Shown here one piece after another: positions 2-11,442 of a stretch of DNA of 64,000 nt (position 1 is the stretch's first letter; each line of letters opens with the position of its first letter). The position numbers were made by a program, and so were the translations under genes. The DNA is from Candidatus Hydrogenedentota bacterium (lineage in GTDB: Bacteria > Hydrogenedentota > Hydrogenedentia > Hydrogenedentales > JAGMZX01): assembly GCA_029556545.1 (NCBI GenBank), contig JAKQEQ010000069.1:1-64000 (forward strand), written 5' to 3'. Below the pieces are notes generated by a model that saw nothing but the letters and a program-made list of their open reading frames with translations, did not search any database and had not been told where the DNA came from.

Positions 2-1354
2 ATGCTCGAAGTGCGCCAGCGGCAGTACGTCGGCATGGTCGAAATCGAGATCGAGTTGCTTAATGAGGAGTTCACCAAGAGCGCCCGCCTACTGAAACAA
101 TTGGAGGAACTGGCTCGGGTCATTGAGGGTCAGACCCTCGAGACGGATTATGTCTCCCTGTTGGCCATCGAGACGGAGCAGACCGTCGTCCGCGAGATGC
201 AGTTACGCCTCTACGAACTAATCCTCGAGCGAAACCGCGTGAAACAATCCCTGGGCGCGAGCCACCCGCAGGTGCAGAGCCTGAACGGCCAGGTGGCGGG
301 CGCCTCGGCCGATCTGCGAACGGCCATCGCGAACATCCGCCAGGCCACCACCATGAAGCAAGAGGCCACGCGGGCGCGCCTGAATGAATTGAACGCGGTG
401 AAGAAGGAGTTCGACGCCAAACAGCGCGAGATCGATATCCTCGCGGCGAATTACGAACTGTACGCGCAGCGGTACGAGGAATCGATCATCAGCGAGGAAC
501 TCGCGGAGAAGAACGTATCGAGCATCCGCGACATGTCAAAGGCGACCCTGCCTTCGAACCCGGTGCGACCGAACCGGCTGTTGAACCTTATCGTCGCGAT
601 CATCGGCGGGTTCATCATCGCCTTGGGCCTCGCGTTCTTCTTCGAGTATCTCGACCATGGCCTCAAGACGCCGGAAGACGTCGAGCACTACGTGAAGGTT
701 ACGCCGCTCGCCAGTTTCTTCAATCCGCCCGGGCAGCCGCTTGACGGGCGCGAAGCGGAACGGCTGTCGATCATGCTCGATACGATCACGAGCAAGGCCG
801 GCGAGAGCCAGCTTTACGAGGTGACCAGCGCCGTGTCCCACGAAGGCGCGCCGCAAGTGGCCGCGGCGCTGGCGCATGCCTTCGCGAGCGACGCCGATAA
901 CCGCACGCTCCTGGTGGATTTCGCGGGTGATATTGCCGAAGCGCGACGCGCGCCTCATGGGGTCGTGGATATTCTGCTCGGACAGGTCTCCGTCGAAAGT
1001 GCGCTGGACTCCGAGGAGACCCTTGTCGTCCTCGGGCGCGGATCGCATGGCGAGTACCCCGCGCACCTGTGGGGTTCCGAGCGCATGAAGCAGGTGGTCG
1101 AGGCGCTGCGTGGCCGCTTCAAATACATCGTCTTCCATGCCGGACCGGTGTTGCAGGCCCACGACGCGGTCAAGCTGGCCCGCTACGCCGACGGCGTCCT
1201 GCTCGCCATCAAGGCGGACGCCACGCGCCGGGAAGTGGTGGGGCGCGCCGTGCAAATGCTCAAGGACGGCAACGCCACGGTGCTCGGGGCGGTGCTGACG
1301 GAACGGACACAGACCATTCCAAGAGCCGTCTATCGCCGTTTCCTGCGGGCGTAG
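2..1354 (+). CDS. Polysaccharide chain-length determinant (GumC/Wzc-like), 5'-truncated
   Basis: The gene runs in from the left edge, so the ATG at 2 is probably internal. The visible 450 residues start with a long coiled coil (about 1-180), then a PVRP motif (187-190) and one membrane span (about 193-215). This is the usual end of a Wzz/GumC co-polymerase periplasmic domain. The cytoplasmic part resembles a BY-kinase fold, but the P-loop position (about 275-290, TSAVSHEGAPQ) lacks the GKS/T signature and no tyrosine-rich tail is present. It may therefore be a pseudokinase that sets polymer length in exopolysaccharide export at the inner membrane. A GDGNAT-like segment and an RVYRRFLRA end follow. 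The family call is good; the loss of kinase activity is inferred. Confidence 0.8.
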   Translation: MLEVRQRQYVGMVEIEIELLNEEFTKSARLLKQLEELARVIEGQTLETDYVSLLAIETEQTVVREMQLRLYELILERNRVKQSLGASHPQVQSLNGQVAGASADLRTAIANIRQATTMKQEATRARLNELNAVKKEFDAKQREIDILAANYELYAQRYEESIISEELAEKNVSSIRDMSKATLPSNPVRPNRLLNLIVAIIGGFIIALGLAFFFEYLDHGLKTPEDVEHYVKVTPLASFFNPPGQPLDGREAERLSIMLDTITSKAGESQLYEVTSAVSHEGAPQVAAALAHAFASDADNRTLLVDFAGDIAEARRAPHGVVDILLGQVSVESALDSEETLVVLGRGSHGEYPAHLWGSERMKQVVEALRGRFKYIVFHAGPVLQAHDAVKLARYADGVLLAIKADATRREVVGRAVQMLKDGNATVLGAVLTERTQTIPRAVYRRFLRA

Positions 1355-1528
1355 ACAACGAGTTGTTGAAATATTGGGACGCGGCGTCGTGCGGCGCCGC
1401 GTCTTCGGCAAGGAACGAGGGAGCCACCGGTGTGCGGCGCGGCCTTGCCTGGTCAGGCACGATCCCGCGCACGGAGGCTTCACGTATCGGGAACCGAAGG
1501 CGCGGTCAAATTCGTGAGGAGTGCAGGT

Positions 1529-3958
<2,430 letters not shown>

Positions 3959-3974
3959 CACGCGAGTAATCGTT

Positions 3975-4018
3975 ACCCGGGAGCGGGGGCGGCTTGCCCC
4001 CGTTCCCGGGTATTGTTT
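3975..4018 (+). terminator. Intrinsic terminator after the beta-helix gene
   Basis: A 16-base-pair stem (3975-3990 with 3996-4011, one G-U pair) and a 5-base loop are followed by ATTGTTTT. It lies 17 bases past the stop codon of the beta-helix gene. Confidence 0.75.
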
Positions 4019-4199
4019 TGCCGACTTGACGCCCCTCCAGACCTATGGCATGGTTTTCCATAGGAAGGCGACGCTTATCGTTGACGACACGGTCATGCGC
4101 GCGATCAAGCGCGAACACGGCATCAAAACAATGGGTGCTGTTCCGCTATTACCGCTGGATTGCCGGATCTTTGGCGGAGTCGCGGTCGAATCGTGCCGC

Positions 4200-4325
4200 A
4201 TGTCGCGGATAGCGCGGACGACATGTTAGCGCGCTTCAGCGCGCTCCTGTTTGCACCCTGCTTTAGCAGGGGTGTCGGGCGCTTCAGCGCCGCTTCCGTG
4301 CTCGCGCCGACGGCGCGCCTACGGC
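4200..4325. repeat. Cluster of short palindromes between convergent genes
   Basis: The 360-base gap 3959-4318 holds no gene. After the terminator it contains a run of small hairpins: GCGCGCTTCAGCGCGC near 4229, CCTGCTTTAGCAGG near 4257, GGCGCTTCAGCGCC near 4278 and GCGCCGACGGCGCGCC near 4306. The repeated TTCAGCG core suggests a REP-like family. Confidence 0.55.
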
Positions 4326-5347
4326 AAGCTGAGATGGAACTCGTGCCCGTCCCCGGGGCGCACGAGATACGGTAACCCGTCGCGCCAGCGCAGCCGCATC
4401 TTTGACAAGTACCACGTCGCGCCGTTGTCGTCGTTCCCCTGGAAGAACAGATACTGCGCGCCGTCATCGTCGGTGAAGACGCCCGGGTGGCCCGATTCGC
4501 TGTGGTTCCACGACTCGGGCAGCCCGTTCGGCAGCAGCGGCTGATCCGAGACCCGCTTCCACGACAGCCCGTCGTCGCTCACGGCCACACCTATCTGCTG
4601 CGGGTTGTTGTTGTAGCCGCCGGCATAGAACATGTAGAAGCGCCCATCCCGCTTGAGGACGGCCGGGGCCTCGACGCAAGCCGTCTCCCACGGCAATTCC
4701 GGGGCCAGGATGGCCGCGTCGCACCGCTGCGTCCAACTCTCCCGCACGAAACCCGCCGCCGTCGGCGCGGTCGCGACCACCAGCATCTGCCGCTTCATAT
4801 CCGGGTCGCGCGTGGCACAGTAGAGAAGGGCCGTCTCGCCGTCGAGGAACACCTCCGCGTCGATGGCGCGCCCCGCGTTCCAGTCGCCCATCGGGCGAAA
4901 GATCGGATTCGTCGGATTCCGTTCAAAACGGACCCCGTCTTCCGAAACCGCGTGGCAAATGGCGTCCAGACGCCCCTGGCCGTAAGTCTGATAGAAGAGA
5001 TGCACCCGCCCTTCATGCACCAGCGCCGCCGGCGCCGCCAGACCGCGCCGATCATACCGCGCGTCGGGCCGCACCTCGCCCACCTTCGTCCAGGCGACCA
5101 GGTCCCGGCTCTCCGCGATCCCCACCGCGAAACGCCGGTCCGCCAGCCGGGTCGAGTAATAGAGGAGATAGCGCCCCCCGAACTTTACGACGTCCGGGTC
5201 CTTCGCGAAGGCCCCGCCATAGTCCCGGTCCGTGAAATCCATCTCGGGCCGCGCCGCCGCCTGTCCTTCCGGCGCCGCTACGTCCGCCCCGTCCGCCGCC
5301 ATCAGACAGACGGCCACGATACAACAAGACAAACCGTAACGACGCAT
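4319..5347 (-). CDS. Secreted GH43-like glycoside hydrolase (five-bladed propeller)
   Basis: The start at 5347 (MRRYGLSCCIVAVCLMAADG) gives a signal peptide; an upstream in-frame ATG at 5389 would hide it. The 342-residue product carries blade motifs typical of clan GH-F proteins: DPDVVKFGGRYLLYYS near residue 50 with the Asp of the DP pair as likely catalytic base, EAPAVLKRDGRFYMFYAGG, and SGHPGVFTDDDGAQYLFFQG. It probably removes arabinose, xylose or galactose-type sugars from polysaccharide outside the cytoplasm. The exact family (GH43, GH117 or a relative) cannot be fixed by eye. It is convergent with the beta-helix gene and lies just left of the tRNA-Asp integration site. Confidence 0.75.
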   Translation of the reverse strand: MRRYGLSCCIVAVCLMAADGADVAAPEGQAAARPEMDFTDRDYGGAFAKDPDVVKFGGRYLLYYSTRLADRRFAVGIAESRDLVAWTKVGEVRPDARYDRRGLAAPAALVHEGRVHLFYQTYGQGRLDAICHAVSEDGVRFERNPTNPIFRPMGDWNAGRAIDAEVFLDGETALLYCATRDPDMKRQMLVVATAPTAAGFVRESWTQRCDAAILAPELPWETACVEAPAVLKRDGRFYMFYAGGYNNNPQQIGVAVSDDGLSWKRVSDQPLLPNGLPESWNHSESGHPGVFTDDDGAQYLFFQGNDDNGATWYLSKMRLRWRDGLPYLVRPGDGHEFHLSLP

Positions 5348-5476
5348 AACCCTGTTCACGGCCTTGGCCTCACACGATTTCCGACCCATCAGTATACGGA
5401 CCCGGACACATCTATGCCAAGAGATGCCCCAGCGGGCAGGTAATGAAGAGCCAGAACCAGCCGGGGTACCTGCGGG

Positions 5477-7204
5477 TTACGGCTTCTTATTGATGCGCGC
5501 GCCGATGTCAGGTTGATTTGTCGCCTCGGAAACAGGTAGAATCTCTCTGCGCTGTGGGCATTCGTCCACCCCCGAGCGGGGGCGTAGTTCAGTTGGTTTA
5601 GAACGCCGGCCTGTCACGCCGGAGGTCGCGGGTTCAAGTCCCGTCGCTCCCGCCATACTTTCACCCCTCATAATACCCCTGCAAACATTGGTTTCTCCTT
5701 GAAAACCGGGGTTTTTCGCGCCATAGGACAGCATAGAGCCGCTGTTATGGTTTCCTGATACGCTTTCGCCATGCCGCGCCCCTTTTTGACATGAAAAGCC
5801 GCCGCCGCGTGCAACAATCCGTGCAACATCGGGCCGGGCAGTCTTGCGGTCCAGGTCGGGCAGTCTTTCCACCGCGCCCGCCGTGTCGAGCATGGCCGGG
5901 TCCAGGTAGTGTTTCGCCGTCAAGGTCGGCGAATGATGCCTCATGAGCACTTGCGCCGTCGCCAGGGGAACGCCGCCGCCCGCGAGCAGGGAGCAGTACG
6001 TCATGCGCAGCGCGTGCAAGTCCGCCACACGTCCGCGTGCGTCATGCTTCGCGATATTCGCCGCCGCCAAGTCCCGGTCGAAAACCTTCACGCTTGACGG
6101 CGCATTCAGAAACAGCGCCTTGTCCATGTCGAGCCGCGCCGGAATAGGGCCGCCACGCCGCCTAGAATCCGCTCTGCTCCACGATAGGCGTTCCCCTAGG
6201 TACTCGATAAGGTCCGCCGCCAGACCGCCGCGTAGGGGCAGCGTAGCGCCTTTTCGGTTCTTCTCCGCTTCCGCCCGTAGTTGGATGCGCGGTTTCGGCC
6301 CGTCAAGGTCGAGATCGCCTATGCGCAGGGTCCGCGCCTCATTGAACCGCAAGCCGGTAAACGCCATGACCCGGTAGAACAGCGCACGCTCCCGCCCGAG
6401 TCGCCGTTTGTCTTCGAGCACTTCCGGGCGCACGTCCGCCGCCGGTTGCCCTTTGCGCGGGCCTCGCGTAATGCGTTGCACTTCCAGCACGGGCCGGGTT
6501 TCCGCCGCCTCGAAAAGCCGCTCCAATTCCTGCTCCGTCAGCGCCCGCCGCACGTGTCGCCGATCAAGTTCTTCCTTCGCCGCGTGCGTTTCTACAAGCG
6601 GGTTCGTAAGCAGCCGCCCCGTCTTAACGCACCATCGGGAGAAACTCACCATCGCCGCGCGGTAGACGTTGCGCCGCCGCGCCGAAAGTCCCGCCCGCGC
6701 CAGGTCGCCAAGCCATACCTCGAAGCGGGAACGGTTCAAGTCGCGCAAGAGCCGGAAATTGCAGCCGTCGAGTACGCGCCCCAAGTCGGCCCGGCGCTCC
6801 TTGATATGCCGCGCCGTCAGGTCGCGCCGGGTCATGTCGTCGAGGTAGGCGTCCACGTGTTCCACAAGAGGCACGCGCGCATGGTCCGCCGCTTCCGCCT
6901 CGCGTTCCGTGAGCAGTCCCGCCCGTTGCTGGGCCGCGCGCGCAAGCCATGCGGAGTAGACGCGCATCGCCTCGCCTCGGTCTTTGCACCCCGTGTTCTT
7001 TTCGCACAAGATACCCGCCCCGTCGCGGAATCGCCCGGAGTAGGTCGCGCTTTTTTCAAGAACGCGGTCGCCGTTCTTCGATACCCGCCCCTCGTGCTTG
7101 CGCCCGTCCGCGCCCGTCCAGCGCACCCACGCCTTACCCTTGCGCGTGAATCGCTCCGCGCCCTCGGGCATAGGCCTCGATATGCTTTTCTTGAATACGC
7201 TCAT
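5477..7204 (-). CDS. int: Tyrosine recombinase (integrase) whose frame crosses attL into the host tRNA
   Basis: The 575-residue frame carries the tyrosine-recombinase catalytic set: Arg286 (FTGLRFNEA), His397 and Arg400 (DLHALRMTY), His423 or His424 (MRHHSPTLTAKHY) and nucleophile Tyr433. An N-terminal core-binding region (about 110-200) precedes it. It should integrate and excise the element at tRNA-Asp. The frame does not stop inside the element: residues 517-532 are the antisense of the 48-bp core, and the last 43 residues are host sequence antisense to the tRNA and its 5' flank. In an excised circle the same frame would instead enter the 83-codon tail now at 10922-11173, giving about 615 residues. 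The start overlaps the upstream regulator stop (ATGA). Confidence 0.93.
   Translation of the reverse strand: MSVFKKSISRPMPEGAERFTRKGKAWVRWTGADGRKHEGRVSKNGDRVLEKSATYSGRFRDGAGILCEKNTGCKDRGEAMRVYSAWLARAAQQRAGLLTEREAEAADHARVPLVEHVDAYLDDMTRRDLTARHIKERRADLGRVLDGCNFRLLRDLNRSRFEVWLGDLARAGLSARRRNVYRAAMVSFSRWCVKTGRLLTNPLVETHAAKEELDRRHVRRALTEQELERLFEAAETRPVLEVQRITRGPRKGQPAADVRPEVLEDKRRLGRERALFYRVMAFTGLRFNEARTLRIGDLDLDGPKPRIQLRAEAEKNRKGATLPLRGGLAADLIEYLGERLSWSRADSRRRGGPIPARLDMDKALFLNAPSSVKVFDRDLAAANIAKHDARGRVADLHALRMTYCSLLAGGGVPLATAQVLMRHHSPTLTAKHYLDPAMLDTAGAVERLPDLDRKTARPDVARIVARGGGFSCQKGARHGESVSGNHNSGSMLSYGAKNPGFQGETNVCRGIMRGESMAGATGLEPATSGVTGRRSKPTELRPRSGVDECPQRREILPVSEATNQPDIGARINKKP
5578..5655 (+). 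tRNA. tRNA-Asp (GUC), CCA encoded
   Basis: The cloverleaf can be drawn directly: acceptor GGGGGCG (5578-5584) with CGCTCCC (5645-5651, one G-U), D arm GTTC/GAAC, anticodon stem CCGGC/GCCGG with loop CTGTCAC giving anticodon GTC at 5613-5615, T arm GCGGG-TTCAAGT-CCCGT, discriminator G and encoded CCA. The 3' part from 5609 is the attachment core of the integrated element and is kept intact, so the tRNA stays functional. The integrase reading frame crosses it in antisense. Confidence 0.97.
5609..5656. other. attL, 48-bp attachment core inside tRNA-Asp
   Basis: It is identical over 48 bases to 11174-11221; the flanking bases differ on both sides (5608 G against 11173 C, 5657 A against 11222 T). 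It covers the anticodon loop through the CCA end plus one T. Read on the minus strand it is exactly 16 codons, MAGATGLEPATSGVTG, in frame with the integrase. Confidence 0.95.
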
Positions 7205-7431
7205 GCCCTCTTACCTCTCCTTCGAGTCTGCTTGCACTCGATGCCGAAGTACTCCGCGAGCGTGTCAGCCTTGTCGAGCCGCAGTGTGCTCTTGCCCTTC
7301 ACGAAAGCCATGATGCATTGCCGTGGAACGCCGGTATCCCGCTCGATGCCAAGGTACGTCGGCGCATCGAGGATCGCTTGCCGGAGTAGGTCGCTCATGG
7401 AACCCTTCGAGATATGCCGTTGTTTCGCCAT
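7201..7431 (-). CDS. Small HTH regulator of the element (Cro/CI-like)
   Basis: About 76 residues, with a compact helix-turn-helix (TYLGIERDTGVPRQCIMAFVKGKSTLRLDKADTLAEYF region, residues about 23-60) and a basic C-terminus (KQTRRRGKRA). ATG 7431 is preferred to ATG 7437 because an AGGA site lies about 8 bases upstream of it but only 2 bases upstream of the other. Its stop overlaps the integrase start in an ATGA, so the two are translationally coupled and the protein may control integrase or the element's own promoters. The target is not known. Confidence 0.75.
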   Translation of the reverse strand: MAKQRHISKGSMSDLLRQAILDAPTYLGIERDTGVPRQCIMAFVKGKSTLRLDKADTLAEYFGIECKQTRRRGKRA

Positions 7432-7472
7432 GTCCATATTCCTACATTATTTCCGCGCCGTTGTCAAGTGCC

Positions 7473-7901
7473 TTAGACGACATTGATGTCGGATTCATCG
7501 TCGTCGTCATCCGGGTCGAGGGCATCGACCGGGGCCGGGGCCTTCACGCCGCGCGCCCGTGGGGTCAGCCCAAGTTCACGCTCGATGCGGAGCATTGCGC
7601 CGGACAACGAGACGAAATCTCGCGTGCTCATGTTGGGGTCGTCATCCAGCATCGCCCGCGCCGCACAATATCGCCCGAAAAGGGGAAGGGCAAGGGCATC
7701 CACCACGCCGCGCTCGACAAGTCGAGGTAGCGCCTCCTTCCATATGCGCCTGGCGGTCGCGTTCAAGTGTTTCGGCGGATCGGGCACGTGGTCCAGGGCC
7801 ACCGCGCCGCCGCCAGGGGTCGCCGCACTCTGGCGTAGCCGCTGATAGCGTTGCGCCCTCGACAGTTGAGAGATCGGTTTCATTTTCGGTCCGCATTTCA
7901 T
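7473..7901 (-). CDS. P27-type phage terminase small-subunit-like protein (copy 1)
   Basis: The start at 7901 is supported by AGGAGA 8 bases upstream; an upstream in-frame extension to 8015 would overlap the neighbouring gene. The 142-residue product has a basic N-terminus (CGPKMKPISQLSRAQRY), a helical middle (LNATARRIWKEALPRLVE) and the ELGLTPRAR segment typical of P27-family small terminases, then an acidic tail (DPDDDDDESDINVV). Small terminases recognise phage DNA for packaging. The gene to its right, 7945-8331, shares the N-terminal and C-terminal signatures and is probably a duplicate. No large terminase is present in the element. Confidence 0.7.
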   Translation of the reverse strand: MKCGPKMKPISQLSRAQRYQRLRQSAATPGGGAVALDHVPDPPKHLNATARRIWKEALPRLVERGVVDALALPLFGRYCAARAMLDDDPNMSTRDFVSLSGAMLRIERELGLTPRARGVKAPAPVDALDPDDDDDESDINVV

Positions 7902-7944
7902 GGTTGTGTCTCCTATGGTTTCCCGCGTTGTTGTCGGGTCCGCG

Positions 7945-8331
7945 TTAGACGATCTTGAGATGCGATTCGTCGTCATCCGGGTCGATGGGGTCGGTCGGCT
8001 TGACGCCACGGGCAAGCGGCATCATTCCGAATTGCCGGGCAAGCGGTTGAATCACTCGGGTCAGCGCCACACGTTCTTGGGCAGTGCCCGCCCGCTCGAA
8101 GTCCGCGAGCAGGGAGCACAGGATCGCCAGGGCCGGGCCGTCTATCGGCGTCAAAGTGTTCGTCAGTTGCAGGGCGATGCGTTCCCAGTGGCCTTGGGCC
8201 GCCGCGTCAAGCGTGGCCGGGCACTCGGGCATACCCCGCTTTAGTTGCGCGCCCTCGCCTTGCCGCTCTCGAACGTACCGTTGCGCCCTCGACAATTCGG
8301 AAAATGGTTTGTGTTTCGGTCCAGATCGCAT
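7945..8331 (-). CDS. P27-type phage terminase small-subunit-like protein (copy 2)
   Basis: The 128-residue product starts after an AGGGAGA site. It shares with the adjacent copy the N-terminal pattern SGPKHKPFSELSRAQRY, a helical middle (LDAAAQGHWERIALQL), the QFGMMPLARGVK segment (equivalent to ELGLTPRARGVK) and an acidic end (DPDDDESHLKIV). Middle sections are strongly diverged, so this is an old tandem duplication, or two proteins with different recognition specificities. It is separated by 43 bases from copy 1 and probably cotranscribed. The family call rests on the C-terminal motif and helical pattern and is moderately secure. Confidence 0.65.
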   Translation of the reverse strand: MRSGPKHKPFSELSRAQRYVRERQGEGAQLKRGMPECPATLDAAAQGHWERIALQLTNTLTPIDGPALAILCSLLADFERAGTAQERVALTRVIQPLARQFGMMPLARGVKPTDPIDPDDDESHLKIV

Positions 8332-8365
8332 GATTCTATCTCCCTATGGGTTGTATCCCGCCGCC

Positions 8366-8635
8366 TTAGCGAGATATTTTTCGTCTTGAATCCGTGCGTG
8401 CGATTAGCCAATCGGTAGTCGCGCAATCGCTCTGTGAAAACGCACCCCATATCCCCCTCGGGTCGTGTTCCGGTATGACTTCGCCGTCGTTCGTGCGATA
8501 GCGGGCATCCAGGGCCGTGTGAATTGTGCGAGTTGGGCCGGGGCCGGGGTTCGGGCCGAAACCGCCCGAGTTCGGGCCGCTTACAGTAGATGCGCCTATT
8601 CCGAGAGAAAAAGAACCAAACCAAGCCGCGCGCAT
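8366..8635 (-). CDS. Possible small protein of the element, unknown
   Basis: An 89-residue frame between the terminase-like genes and the iteron array. The middle is Gly/Pro-rich and the C-terminal half (ALDARYRTNDGEVIPEHDPRG, then IWGAFSQSD) looks protein-like, with mixed codon use. No clear ribosome site is seen before ATG 8635 and no family is recognised. It may equally be a non-coding spacer next to the repeats. Confidence 0.3.
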   Translation of the reverse strand: MRAAWFGSFSLGIGASTVSGPNSGGFGPNPGPGPTRTIHTALDARYRTNDGEVIPEHDPRGIWGAFSQSDCATTDWLIARTDSRRKISR

Positions 8636-8665
8636 CCACGCCGCCAGCAATGGTATATTAAGATC

Positions 8666-8801
8666 ACCGCAGTGAGTGCGGTAGGTCACAAGGGCAAGAG
8701 ACGCAAGCATCCCCGCAGTGAGTGCGGTAGGTCGCCTGATACCCCCCGCAGTGAGTGCGGGGATACTTTCCGCTACCCCCCGCAGTGAGTGCGGTAGGTT
8801 T
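8666..8801. repeat. Four palindromic iteron-like repeats
   Basis: The 15-bp palindrome CCGCAGTGAGTGCGG (5-bp arms, GTGAG loop) occurs exactly four times, starting at 8667, 8713, 8746 and 8780 (spacing 46, 33 and 34 bases). Three of the four are followed by TAGGT. The last is followed by a T tract, so it could also work as a terminator for a plus-strand transcript. The array directly follows the 3' end of the winged-helix gene (8814-9314). It may be a replication origin, a binding site for the element's own regulator or a packaging-recognition site. Confidence 0.85.
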
Positions 8802-8813
8802 TTTTCGTGTAGC

Positions 8814-9314
8814 CTACCGTGCCTCATGTCGCATCTTCTCCCGGAATTCGCGCCGCCGCTTCTTGCTACGGTTGATCCGCTGCTTGCGCATCGCGTCGAA
8901 TTTATCGAGGGATCGCCGCTCTTCCGGCGTCGGCGTGTAGGACTCCCATCGTGCGGATGGTCGGTATCGGGTCGCCCCACCGGGCGTATCCGGTTGATCC
9001 TCGCCTCGGACCTCGAAGAAACCGACGCGGAGCCATTGCCGCCAGCAAGCGCGAAAACCATTCTCGGATACCTGCACACTCGTCGCGTTCCAAGTGAACG
9101 AAAACGCCTCGCCTTTTTTCTCCCATGCAGTAGCGTGAAAATATGCAGCGAAGACCTCCGGGAGCAGGGCTTGCGCGGTCTTCGTTAGGACTCGATAGGC
9201 GTCGCTCTTGAGTAGGTCGCGAGAGATCGGATAAGTCAGGTCGCCGGGCCGGTGCAGGAAAACATTGAACGGTGATAGCGTCCGCCGCTGCTTTCGGAAT
9301 CTGTCTTTTCCCAT
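8814..9314 (-). CDS. Winged-helix, replication-initiator-like protein of the element
   Basis: ATG 9314 is chosen because a GGGAGG site lies 5 bases before it. The 166-residue protein has a helical core (RDLLKSDAYRVLTKTAQALL) and a strand-rich wing (FSFTWNATSVQVSENGFRACW), a layout like plasmid/phage replication-initiator or helix-turn-helix proteins. A strongly basic C-terminus (KQRINRSKKRRREFREKMRH) fits DNA binding. Its gene lies directly beside four palindromic repeats, as Rep genes often do beside iterons. No catalytic motif of a relaxase or rolling-circle Rep was seen. The replication role is inferred from context. Confidence 0.5.
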   Translation of the reverse strand: MGKDRFRKQRRTLSPFNVFLHRPGDLTYPISRDLLKSDAYRVLTKTAQALLPEVFAAYFHATAWEKKGEAFSFTWNATSVQVSENGFRACWRQWLRVGFFEVRGEDQPDTPGGATRYRPSARWESYTPTPEERRSLDKFDAMRKQRINRSKKRRREFREKMRHEAR

Positions 9315-9395
9315 GCTCACCTCCCTTACCCGACGCGGGCGCAGCCGGTGAGCAAGCCGCAGCCCGCGCCGGGCATGGGGTTACCCCCAAAGTGG

Positions 9396-9614
9396 TTAAC
9401 TTCGCGCCACCGCCCGCGCCTTGCCGCATCCACAGCGCATCACCGCGTCGATGTCGCTACGCCGCCAGCGCCGCGAGCCGCCAAGCGCAACAGGCCGGGG
9501 CAATTGCCCGCTGTCGGCGAAGCGCCAGACGGTTCTCTCGCTTAGCCGCAAGGTCTGCGCAACCTCCTTGACGGTCATCAATTGATCAGCGTTTTCCATT
9601 GCCTTCGTTCGCAT
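9396..9614 (-). CDS. Excisionase-like HTH protein (AlpA/HTH_17 type)
   Basis: The 72-residue protein starts 8 bases after a full AGGAGG site. It contains the MerR-like winged-helix signature LMTVKEVAQTLRLSERTVWR and a following SDIDAVM recognition segment, as in AlpA/Xis-type excisionase or DNA-binding proteins. It probably directs excision or regulates element genes. A strong promoter lies just upstream on the same strand, with an inverted-repeat operator candidate behind it, so it may be the first gene of the element's early operon. Confidence 0.8.
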   Translation of the reverse strand: MRTKAMENADQLMTVKEVAQTLRLSERTVWRFADSGQLPRPVALGGSRRWRRSDIDAVMRCGCGKARAVARS

Positions 9615-9646
9615 CGTGCGAGCCTCCTTGGTTGTCGCTGGTGTTG

Positions 9647-9675
9647 ATGCTACACTATTTTGCAGGGAATGTCAA
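9647..9675 (-). promoter_or_regulatory. Sigma-70-type promoter for the excisionase-like gene
   Basis: Read on the minus strand: TTGACA (9675-9670), a 17-base spacer, then TAGCAT (9652-9647), 33 bases upstream of the start codon at 9614. Confidence 0.7.
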
Positions 9676-9682
9676 GTCTTCC

Positions 9683-9729
9683 CCTGTTGTGAAATGCTAT
9701 CTATATACTGTTAGTATACAGTCAACAGG
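9683..9729. promoter_or_regulatory. Nested inverted repeats, operator candidate
   Basis: The perfect palindrome TATACTGTTAGTATA (9704-9718) sits between CCTGTTG (9683-9689) and its inverted copy CAACAGG (9723-9729), right behind the excisionase promoter. It is much more AT-rich than its surroundings. The rest of the gap 9615-9990 shows no convincing gene. Confidence 0.65.
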
Positions 9730-9990
9730 CAGAATGCCGCCTGTTTACGGGGGTATTGTTGCTTGAAAGCATGCAGAAAACAGGCGCGACAGCCTATGCC
9801 GCCGCGCCCTCGTGGTCGCCGTCGTGGACGTTACGGCCGCCTATACCGCCGCCGCCTCAAAGCGCGAAAGCCCTTGAAAATAAAGGGCGATTGCGAAATG
9901 GCGGCGCAAGTCGGGAAATTTTCCATGAGAAGATCGCGCGAAGGTATACACGCGGAGCCGACCGCCTCATTTCCGCCCGGAAGTACCTTT

Positions 9991-10497
9991 TCATTTCCGG
10001 GTTCGCTCGACCGCCTCACGGATGCTTGCCGCTGATCGCAAAAAGTATAAGTCACTTCCCGCCGCGGCGCTCTTCGCCCGCAGGTCGAGCAAGTCGGCCA
10101 CGTCAAGCAATTCCGCCCGCGTGCCCTCGTAGACTACGAGATCGTCTGGGTCTACACCGTCGAGGAAGTCGAGGAAGTCATCGAAATGGTAGGGCCGCCC
10201 CGCTTTCCCTTGGCAATGCTCTGCGAATAGGTGAATGATGAAATAATCCCAAGGTGGTTGCACCTCCTCGGGCAAGTCCGTCGCGTTGCCGTCCACGAGC
10301 CGGAGCAGGTCGGTGGCCGGTATGCCATGCGGATATTTGCCCTGAAAGTACCGCTGGGTCGCGCCCGAGTCGATGCCCGGATACGCGGTCGCCAGGGCAC
10401 GGGCCGCCAGTGATGCGCCGATATTCGCGCCGGGGTTTCGCGTGAACATGTCTCGATAATGGTCCACGTCTCGAAGTTGCTGTGTCCCTTGGTTCAT
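9991..10497 (-). CDS. Element protein of unknown function, 168 aa
   Basis: ATG 10497 is supported by AAGGAGAG about 8 bases upstream; a longer frame to 10671 has no such site. The product is acidic in the middle (FDDFLDFLDGVDPDDLVVYEG) and mostly helical. It contains GATQRYFQGKYPHGIPATDLLRLVDGN in two pieces, reminiscent of the layout of small phage DNA-binding regulators, but no family is recognised. It lies between the excisionase-like gene and the Cys-rich gene, all on the minus strand. Confidence 0.6.
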   Translation of the reverse strand: MNQGTQQLRDVDHYRDMFTRNPGANIGASLAARALATAYPGIDSGATQRYFQGKYPHGIPATDLLRLVDGNATDLPEEVQPPWDYFIIHLFAEHCQGKAGRPYHFDDFLDFLDGVDPDDLVVYEGTRAELLDVADLLDLRAKSAAAGSDLYFLRSAASIREAVERTRK

Positions 10498-10664
10498 GTC
10501 CTCTCTCCTTGTGCCGTTCACCCTCGGCCCTATGCCGTGGGTTGTTGCCTGTGCTCGATACGTGGCCGTCCACAGTGCGCCAGGAACGCCGACCGGGGCC
10601 GGATGGTGTCTTACCCTTGCCGGGTCGCCGTTCGCGCCGGGAAGCGCACGCCCGTGCGCAAGAA

Positions 10665-10925
10665 TCAGCATAGCGAGGCTTTCACAAGCACCTTGCCGGG
10701 GTCCGCCGCGCGTTTCGGTCGCCTACCCGCCCGGTAGGGCCATAACGGGCAGTCCGTGATCGCGCATCGCGTCACCTCCGCCGGTTGCCCGCCGCAGCAG
10801 TCGATGCACTTCGCGCGCATGGCCTTCATGGGCCGCAAGGCCGGGTCGATGGTGAAATCCCATCCAGTCAACGTGTCGCGCACCTTGCCGGGGTTCCTCA
10901 ATAGCAGTTGCCGAATCTTCTTCAT
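10665..10925 (-). CDS. Phage-type zinc-ribbon-like Cys-rich protein
   Basis: An 86-residue protein with the motif AMRAKCIDCCGGQPAEVTRC followed by DCPLWPYRAGRRP. This Cys pattern (CxxCC...C...CPLWPYR) recurs in small phage and prophage proteins and probably binds zinc; its role is unknown. Its start overlaps the stop of the upstream frame 10922-11230 in an ATGA. In the excised circle that upstream frame would be the integrase tail, so translation of this gene could depend on integrase translation. Confidence 0.7.
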   Translation of the reverse strand: MKKIRQLLLRNPGKVRDTLTGWDFTIDPALRPMKAMRAKCIDCCGGQPAEVTRCAITDCPLWPYRAGRRPKRAADPGKVLVKASLC

Positions 10926-11230
10926 GCCGTAGCATCCTTCGGGTTATCGCCCACGAGTAGCCGCACCAGGGTCGCCCGCTGTTCGGGGTCGAGGTTGCGG
11001 ATCGCCGCCGCCAAGCCTTCGAGAGGGTCGAGGTCCGCACCAGTCGCCGGGGCCGGATCGGGGGCCTCGGAGTGCAACATTTCGGCGTCGGGCGTGCAAC
11101 AATCCGTGCAACGCGGGGTTTCGGAAATGTGTAAGTCCTTGTTCCCCGCGCACTTATCGACAGGGGGCTTCCCGCCTGTCACGCCGGAGGTCGCGGGTTC
11201 AAGTCCCGTCGCTCCCGCCATTGAAAGCAC
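10922..11230 (-). CDS. Detached integrase C-terminal tail at attR
   Basis: A 102-codon frame enters from host flank (GTG 11230 or ATG 11221), reads the attachment core as MAGATGLEPATSGVTG and continues for 83 element-encoded codons ending in AIRNLDPEQRATLVRLLVGD and NPKDATA. The core is read in the same phase as in the integrase at the left end. So in a circularised element this is the natural C-terminus of the integrase; in the integrated state it is cut off from its promoter and catalytic part. It contains CTDCC, so metal binding is possible. As an independent gene it has no clear ribosome site. Confidence 0.8.
   Translation of the reverse strand: MLSMAGATGLEPATSGVTGGKPPVDKCAGNKDLHISETPRCTDCCTPDAEMLHSEAPDPAPATGADLDPLEGLAAAIRNLDPEQRATLVRLLVGDNPKDATA
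11174..11221. other. attR, 48-bp attachment core
   Basis: Exact copy of 5609-5656, holding only the 3' part of tRNA-Asp (anticodon loop to CCA). It marks the right boundary of the integrated element; host sequence resumes at 11222. Confidence 0.95.
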
Positions 11231-11289
11231 TGCGCGGCAATGGGTTACGAAGATTTCCCTTGCCGCGCTTTCTTCATTCCCCCACGCGC

Positions 11290-11442
11290 AAATCCCCTTC
11301 CTCGTTCTCGTCCTCTTCCCCGTTCTCGTTCTCGTGCTCGTTCTCGTACTCGTTCTCTTCCTCTTCCTCTTCCTCTTCCTCGTACTCGCCCTCCTACTCG
11401 CCCTCCTACTCGCCCCAATTCGTGTAATTCGTGTGATTCGTG
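11290..11442. repeat. Pyrimidine-rich hexamer tract and ATTCGTGTA repeats
   Basis: The gap 11231-11574 has no gene. Positions 11290-11414 are a degenerate CTCGTT/CTCTTC hexamer tract. Positions 11417-11442 hold tandem nonamers (AATTCGTGT, AATTCGTGT, GATTCGTGG). Similar nonamers recur near 35518 and a similar pyrimidine tract near 26948. These look like a dispersed intergenic repeat family. Confidence 0.7.

Follow-up and report, generated by a model that had tools for sequence, protein, structure and literature searches.

A bounded integrative element of 5.6 kb (positions 5606-11221) was found inside a tRNA-Asp gene of an uncultured Hydrogenedentota bacterium, in the 64,000-nucleotide stretch of DNA analysed here (the window). 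It encodes two small terminases and is probably a minimal phage satellite that uses small terminase to redirect packaging. Small terminase (TerS) is the phage protein that selects DNA for packaging. The anatomy of the element, the predicted TerS fold, the recurrence of TerS in related elements and the reading frame of the integrase across the attachment site are evident from the data; packaging by a helper phage, a DNA site shared by both terminases and a helper of the P27/HK97 type are inferred.

Structure of the element and its small terminases

The element is delimited by 51-nt direct repeats (98% identity, start-to-start spacing 5565). Pfam, PHROG and NCBIfam profile searches found no TerL-like, portal or capsid genes inside it, and together with the repeats they bore out the first-pass annotation, which had described a 5.6-kb element without portal, capsid or large terminase. 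A search for the empty integration site in a sister genome returned only short tRNA-sized matches. The features of the element are as follows.

5477-7204, minus strand: tyrosine integrase, integrated state, 575 aa (PF00589 1.9e-12; PHROG 1 integrase 1.2e-27)
5606-5656, plus strand: attL core, the 3' part of tRNA-Asp (tRNA gene 5578-5655), repeated at 11171-11221
5807-5827, no strand assigned: possible arm-type integrase site, left copy (exact 21-nt repeat with 11092-11112)
7201-7437, minus strand: Cro/C1-type HTH regulator, adjoining the integrase as in relatives (HTH_26 0.0012, below the cut-off)
7473-7901, minus strand: TerS1, P27/HK97-type small terminase, 142 aa (PF05119, PHROG 83, AlphaFold fold)
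7945-8331, minus strand: TerS2, paralogue of TerS1, 128 aa (identity to TerS1, PHROG 83, tblastn)
8332-8660, no strand assigned: non-coding gap beside the TerS genes, candidate cos/pac-like place (from position; no coding call)
8661-8800, no strand assigned: four iterons CCGCAGTGAGTGCGG, putative origin (four exact copies)
8814-9320, minus strand: Rep, probably starting at 9314, a small initiator-like protein with a winged helix (AlphaFold; family in 11 of 68 genomes of the phylum)
9396-9614, minus strand: AlpA/Xis-type excisionase (Pfam HTH_17 4e-12; TIGR01764 over cut-off; PHROG 66 8e-13)
9991-10497, minus strand: orfA, 168 aa, no family match (coding score and ribosome site)
10665-10925, minus strand: orfB, small Cys-rich protein, possible zinc ribbon (homologues near Rep in L023, L024 and L028)
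10922-11221, minus strand: orfC, integrase C-terminus in the excised circle (int frame through att; similar tails in relatives)
11092-11112, no strand assigned: possible arm-type integrase site, right copy (exact 21-nt repeat with 5807-5827)
11171-11221, plus strand: attR core, direct repeat

Immediately beyond attR, short repeat units of the CTCGTT/CTCTTC type are arrayed at window positions 11283-11396.

TerS1 and TerS2 lie in tandem on the minus strand and are 40% identical. Both start at an ATG with a good ribosome site (AGGAGA for TerS1, whose ATG is at 7901, and AGGGAGA for TerS2). They have in common the motif GPKxKPxSxLSRAQRYxRxRQ and an acidic C-terminus, so an earlier description of two adjacent paralogues with a common N-terminal motif and acidic C-terminal ends was confirmed, with both ORFs at the stated positions. 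TerS1 scored above the cut-off of Pfam Terminase_4 (P27, PF05119; 25.8 vs 24.7 bits) and TerS2 below it (18.7 vs 24.7 bits). Both matched PHROG 83, "terminase small subunit" (1e-11 for TerS1, 6e-8 for TerS2), and TerS2 matched phage TerS by tblastn (5e-5). The NCBIfam TIGR01558 equivalog cut-off of 45.6 bits was reached by neither (24.8 and 16.3, respectively), and on these sequence scores the pair are diverged members of the family, not P27 equivalogs. No close relatives of either protein were found in viral (IMG/VR) or genome contig collections.

Structures were predicted with AlphaFold for TerS1 and seven other TerS sequences. The core of TerS1 was modelled with confidence (blocks between residues 41 and 110, pLDDT 87-95), and in a second-look structural alignment the first match was HK97 TerS (6z6e; Z 8.6, rmsd 2.9, 81 residues), followed by a second HK97 TerS structure (8pop, Z 8.3); the next chain after HK97 scored Z 4.7. 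The named top matches of the model in BFVD were nearly all small terminases. Foldseek alone against the PDB placed HK97 TerS at rank 2 with a non-significant E of 4.7, and a profile of the TerS set, run on sequence alone against solved structures, had no match. Because helical bundles can get such Z scores by chance, a caveat of the structure tool itself, the assignment is based jointly on the gap in Z, the sequence families and the BFVD matches, which support a predicted HK97 TerS fold for the core of TerS1 (residues 37-118). The structure prediction that had been proposed for these proteins thus favoured TerS, with HK97 TerS as the best solved match. The "P27-like C-terminal segment" of the first-pass annotation was right as to the P27 likeness and too narrow as to its extent, since the whole core takes part.

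The similarity between the two paralogues is concentrated at the ends, where 17/24 residues of the N-terminal tail and 16/24 of the C-terminal part are identical, against 18/80 of the core (Fisher p 3e-7). The identical residues are encoded by differing codons in 8/17 cases in the tail, 9/18 in the core and 8/16 in the C-terminal part. Since silent changes are about equally frequent in the three parts, the ends are not recent copies and have been held at the protein level; recent gene conversion as the source of the similar ends was ruled out by the same equality. The sequence-reading substructure of HK97 TerS is built from residues 3-23 of one subunit together with residues 125-145 of its neighbour, and the ring from residues 24-124 (PMC11331095). 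The equivalents of this clamp are conserved between TerS1 and TerS2 while the ring cores differ, which suggests, by analogy with HK97, that the two proteins would recognise a single DNA site through two rings, and not a separate packaging site each. We infer that they may build separate rings that differ in their partners, or assemble in one mixed ring. The earlier proposal that the duplicate covers two helper packaging systems therefore needs to be changed, one site being more likely.

The element also has what appears to be its own replication unit. The iteron CCGCAGTGAGTGCGG is present in four exact copies beside Rep and nowhere else in the 6.1-Mb assembly. Rep matched no family, and its AlphaFold model was nearest to RepA_N and DnaD N-terminal domains, with middling Z scores of 5.9-5.1. 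Four-copy repeat arrays of their own, different in sequence, were found at or near the Rep genes of two relatives (L022 and L024). Rep and its repeats are the picture of an initiator with iterons, a putative function, and the Rep-like gene with four unique iterons corresponds, on predicted function, to the replication unit of PICI-like satellites. Homologues of the HTH regulator occur in L020, L022 and L027. In the homologues of orfB the matching segment is repeated within the protein, and orfB is a possible zinc-binding partner of Rep. Judged by position, a cos/pac-like site may lie in the gap at 8332-8660.

Integrase frame and distribution of related elements

In the integrated state, the final codons of int fall in the tRNA gene and in host DNA, and the frame crosses att. 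The integrase of the window is 575 aa long when integrated and 615 aa in the circle, where 82 codons past att are read through orfC. The same arrangement, with attP within the int frame, was found in the window and 13 bounded relatives, in which the circle adds 56-99 codons past att (in L092 and L095 the frame is extended only with the crossover set at mid-repeat, and the L059 locus itself breaks off within the integrated gene). The median open length past att in all 14 was 78 codons in the int frame and 9.5 in the other two frames. Tails were similar among the 12 elements read at the repeat edge: most contain a CTxxCT-like stretch, and the end resembles LAxALxxLxxxDRxxLxxLL. In the window, the CTxxCT stretch coincides with the exact 21-nt repeat that flanks att (5807-5827 and 11092-11112), and these repeats are perhaps arm-type integrase sites.

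Integration of phage Mx8 gives its int gene a new 3' end and alters integrase activity (PMC6070905), and the integrases of Mx8 and SSV extend over attP (PMC4383910). The element likewise has attP in the int frame and an integrase C-terminus that, as predicted from the frames, is changed by integration. Excision would restore an integrase tail of 56-99 residues across the family, as in Mx8, and by the same analogy the exchange of tails is plausibly a switch of integrase activity. The split integrase should thus distinguish the integrated from the circular state at the molecular level, a predicted mark that can be searched for in existing reads.

Rep-like genes were found in 11 of 68 Hydrogenedentota genomes, and a scan with an integrase profile recovered 79 loci, mostly from Planctomycetota; the first-pass term "Hydrogenedentota-type" is too narrow for such an integrase family. 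A bounded set was drawn from the integrase-scan loci, the Rep-linked elements and one further locus, L034. Seventeen elements, that of the window included, were flanked on both sides by tRNA-derived repeats at a spacing of 5.2-10.1 kb. P27-type TerS was found in three bounded relatives (L073, L091 and L092; PHROG 83 4e-20, 3e-16 and 7e-7), with weak matches in two others (L089, 0.011; L061, 1.3e-4). L031 and L086, whose boundary was not visible, also carry it, as does L034, whose integrase is a different one. The latter is a 9.6-kb element bounded by tRNA-Val (1294-10943); besides P27-type TerS it encodes a primase/helicase-like protein and two recombination enzymes, a tyrosine integrase and a serine recombinase, and it has no recognised structural genes. 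Profiles for HK97-type TerL, portal, capsid and protease, searched across 95 loci, matched only in a true prophage (L032), the search for structural genes being fullest for HK97 types and less full for other families. TerS thus recurs in small elements without HK97-type structural genes, and its relatives are not always part of complete prophages; had they always been, this would have spoken against a satellite. Several large cargo ORFs of the relatives matched nothing. Two HTH proteins that resembled small terminases by eye (L025 and L026) were unconfirmed by the checks and left out of the count.

The family can do without TerS, since about half of the complete relatives had no recognisable gene of the P27 type. 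The presence of TerS, mapped on the integrase tree, required 6 changes among 16 scored elements, indicating that TerS is a mobile module that was repeatedly gained or lost. The genome of the window contains a second related element (L020, contig C101) with the gene order xis-rep-hth-int and no TerS; its cargo is, by eye, a type I restriction system. Other relatives carry an EcoRI-type methylase (L089) and, by eye, a PIN-domain-like gene (L059). One 9.3-kb tRNA-bounded planctomycetal element (L054) encodes a large terminase of the lambda GpA type (2867-4948; PF20454 5e-22), with no HK97-type portal or capsid match.

Rep and the integrase, as single queries against the viral contigs of IMG/VR, found no close relative. 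Related integrases were present in four IMG/VR records of 27-59 kb (L134-L137), which have no HK97-type TerL and may be fragments; the integrase family may therefore also be linked to full prophages. Two other IMG/VR contigs, L139 (9.5 kb) and L143 (10.6 kb), contain P27-type TerS, a prohead-protease-like gene and an integrase; they had no match to HK97-type TerL, portal or capsid, may be fragments, and are possibly another type of satellite in virus collections. A third, L142 (9542 bp), has an 87-bp terminal repeat, a distant integrase and, by eye, AlpA-like and large primase/helicase-like genes, and is perhaps a complete small circular element.

A full-text search of the open-access literature found no papers linking phage satellites with Planctomycetota or Hydrogenedentota. 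The family is widespread in these two phyla, is apparently unreported and likely consists of phage parasites.

Proposed packaging cycle and alternative explanations

An integrase, a specific att site and the lack of recognised structural genes are what is found in PICI-like satellites, and all are present here. The term "satellite" in the first-pass annotation is upheld by the TerS fold, the satellite-like anatomy, the lack of structural genes and the recurrence in small non-prophage elements; its phylum label is too narrow, and a duplicate for two packaging systems is the less likely reading. In the cycle we propose, the element would excise when a P27/HK97-type helper infects or is induced, and would then replicate from the Rep/iteron origin, so that 5.57-kb units become concatemers. 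Once bound to a cos/pac-like site of the element, one or more TerS rings would bring in the large terminase of the helper, which would pack satellite DNA into helper capsids. On integration, with attP inside int, the integrase tail would be exchanged for a host-encoded one. A broader reading, which we hold tentatively and consider unlikely in full, is that a tRNA-targeted satellite family in Planctomycetota and Hydrogenedentota swaps TerS to track changing helpers, that the two rings of the window serve the same site and two different motors, and that every integration rewrites the integrase, which every excision then restores.

The 6.1-Mb, 96%-complete genome of the host was searched for a resident helper, and none was found: it gave no match for the HK97-type TerL, portal and capsid families (PF03354, PF04860, PF05065). 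The element is therefore no recognisable remnant of a prophage of this kind, and a helper would have to be external or of another type. That the TerS genes are leftovers of a prophage, or passively captured, and have no present function is accordingly quite improbable: they do lie at module edges, where phage recombination is common, and no helper is known, but both copies are intact with good ribosome sites and constrained ends, the att repeats are near-identical, and TerS recurs without HK97-type structural genes in several small elements.

A somewhat better case, still improbable, can be made for an interference element, a defence-type cargo island in which TerS poisons phage packaging through mixed rings or occupation of cos and the element itself is not packaged. 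In several relatives TerS occupies the variable cargo zone, which in others holds the restriction system, methylase or PIN-like gene described above, and two diverged copies would suit poisoning by mixed rings. However, the ends that match the HK97 DNA-binding clamp are under protein-level constraint, genes for replication and excision are part of the element itself, and interference and packaging can coexist. The least probable explanation is an integrative plasmid-like element that spreads by conjugation or natural uptake and uses TerS-like proteins for its own copy control or partition; the Rep/iteron unit resembles those of plasmids, but neither a relaxase nor a coupling protein appears in the gene lists, and packaging is what the fold and family of TerS suggest. 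Packaging by a helper, as in the cycle above, remains our preferred explanation.

Comparison with known systems

The family supplies many small, well-bounded candidate satellites in Planctomycetota and Hydrogenedentota, and explains puzzling terminase genes outside prophages in uncultured groups. Two diverged TerS proteins with conserved putative DNA-reading ends and divergent rings also offer a clean test of how satellites adapt to helpers.

HK97 gp1 (P27/Terminase_4) resembles TerS1 in the core fold (residues 37-118), with a basic N-terminal arm and helix before it and a conserved segment after it, but identity to gp1 is 16% and the TerS genes here are not beside a large terminase. VEIMEs and tycheposons are also integrative elements, transduced in marine bacteria and in many cases possibly satellites (PMC10803314); their hosts differ and the likeness is one of description. 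PICMIs of the Vibrionaceae are similar in size (about 6 kb), in having few core excision and replication genes and in the lack of capsid remodelling, and a 6.1-kb PICMI without capsid genes can be packed as an eight-copy concatemer (PMC10803314). PICMIs adjoin fis and lack terS, whereas this element lies in tRNA-Asp with two terS genes, and it thus lacks the defining site of a PICMI. With the Mx8- and SSV-type integrases the element shares the replacement of the integrase end upon integration; here, in contrast, this is found in a family of small tRNA elements, most with a similar C-terminal tail.

In outline the element also resembles PICIs (SaPIs and those of Gram-negative bacteria), which are small and integrative and have a specific att site, an integrase, an AlpA-type regulator and their own replication unit (PMC6092414). 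Some PICIs carry a terS homologue that redirects packaging, the role to which TerS is likened here for an element known from its sequence, and others use the cos or pac of the helper (PMC6092414). No capsid-size or induction genes were recognised in the element of the window. It differs from PICIs further in belonging to other phyla, in its size (5.6 kb, compared with an average of about 9.5 kb), in its two diverged P27/HK97-type TerS proteins and in having attP inside int.
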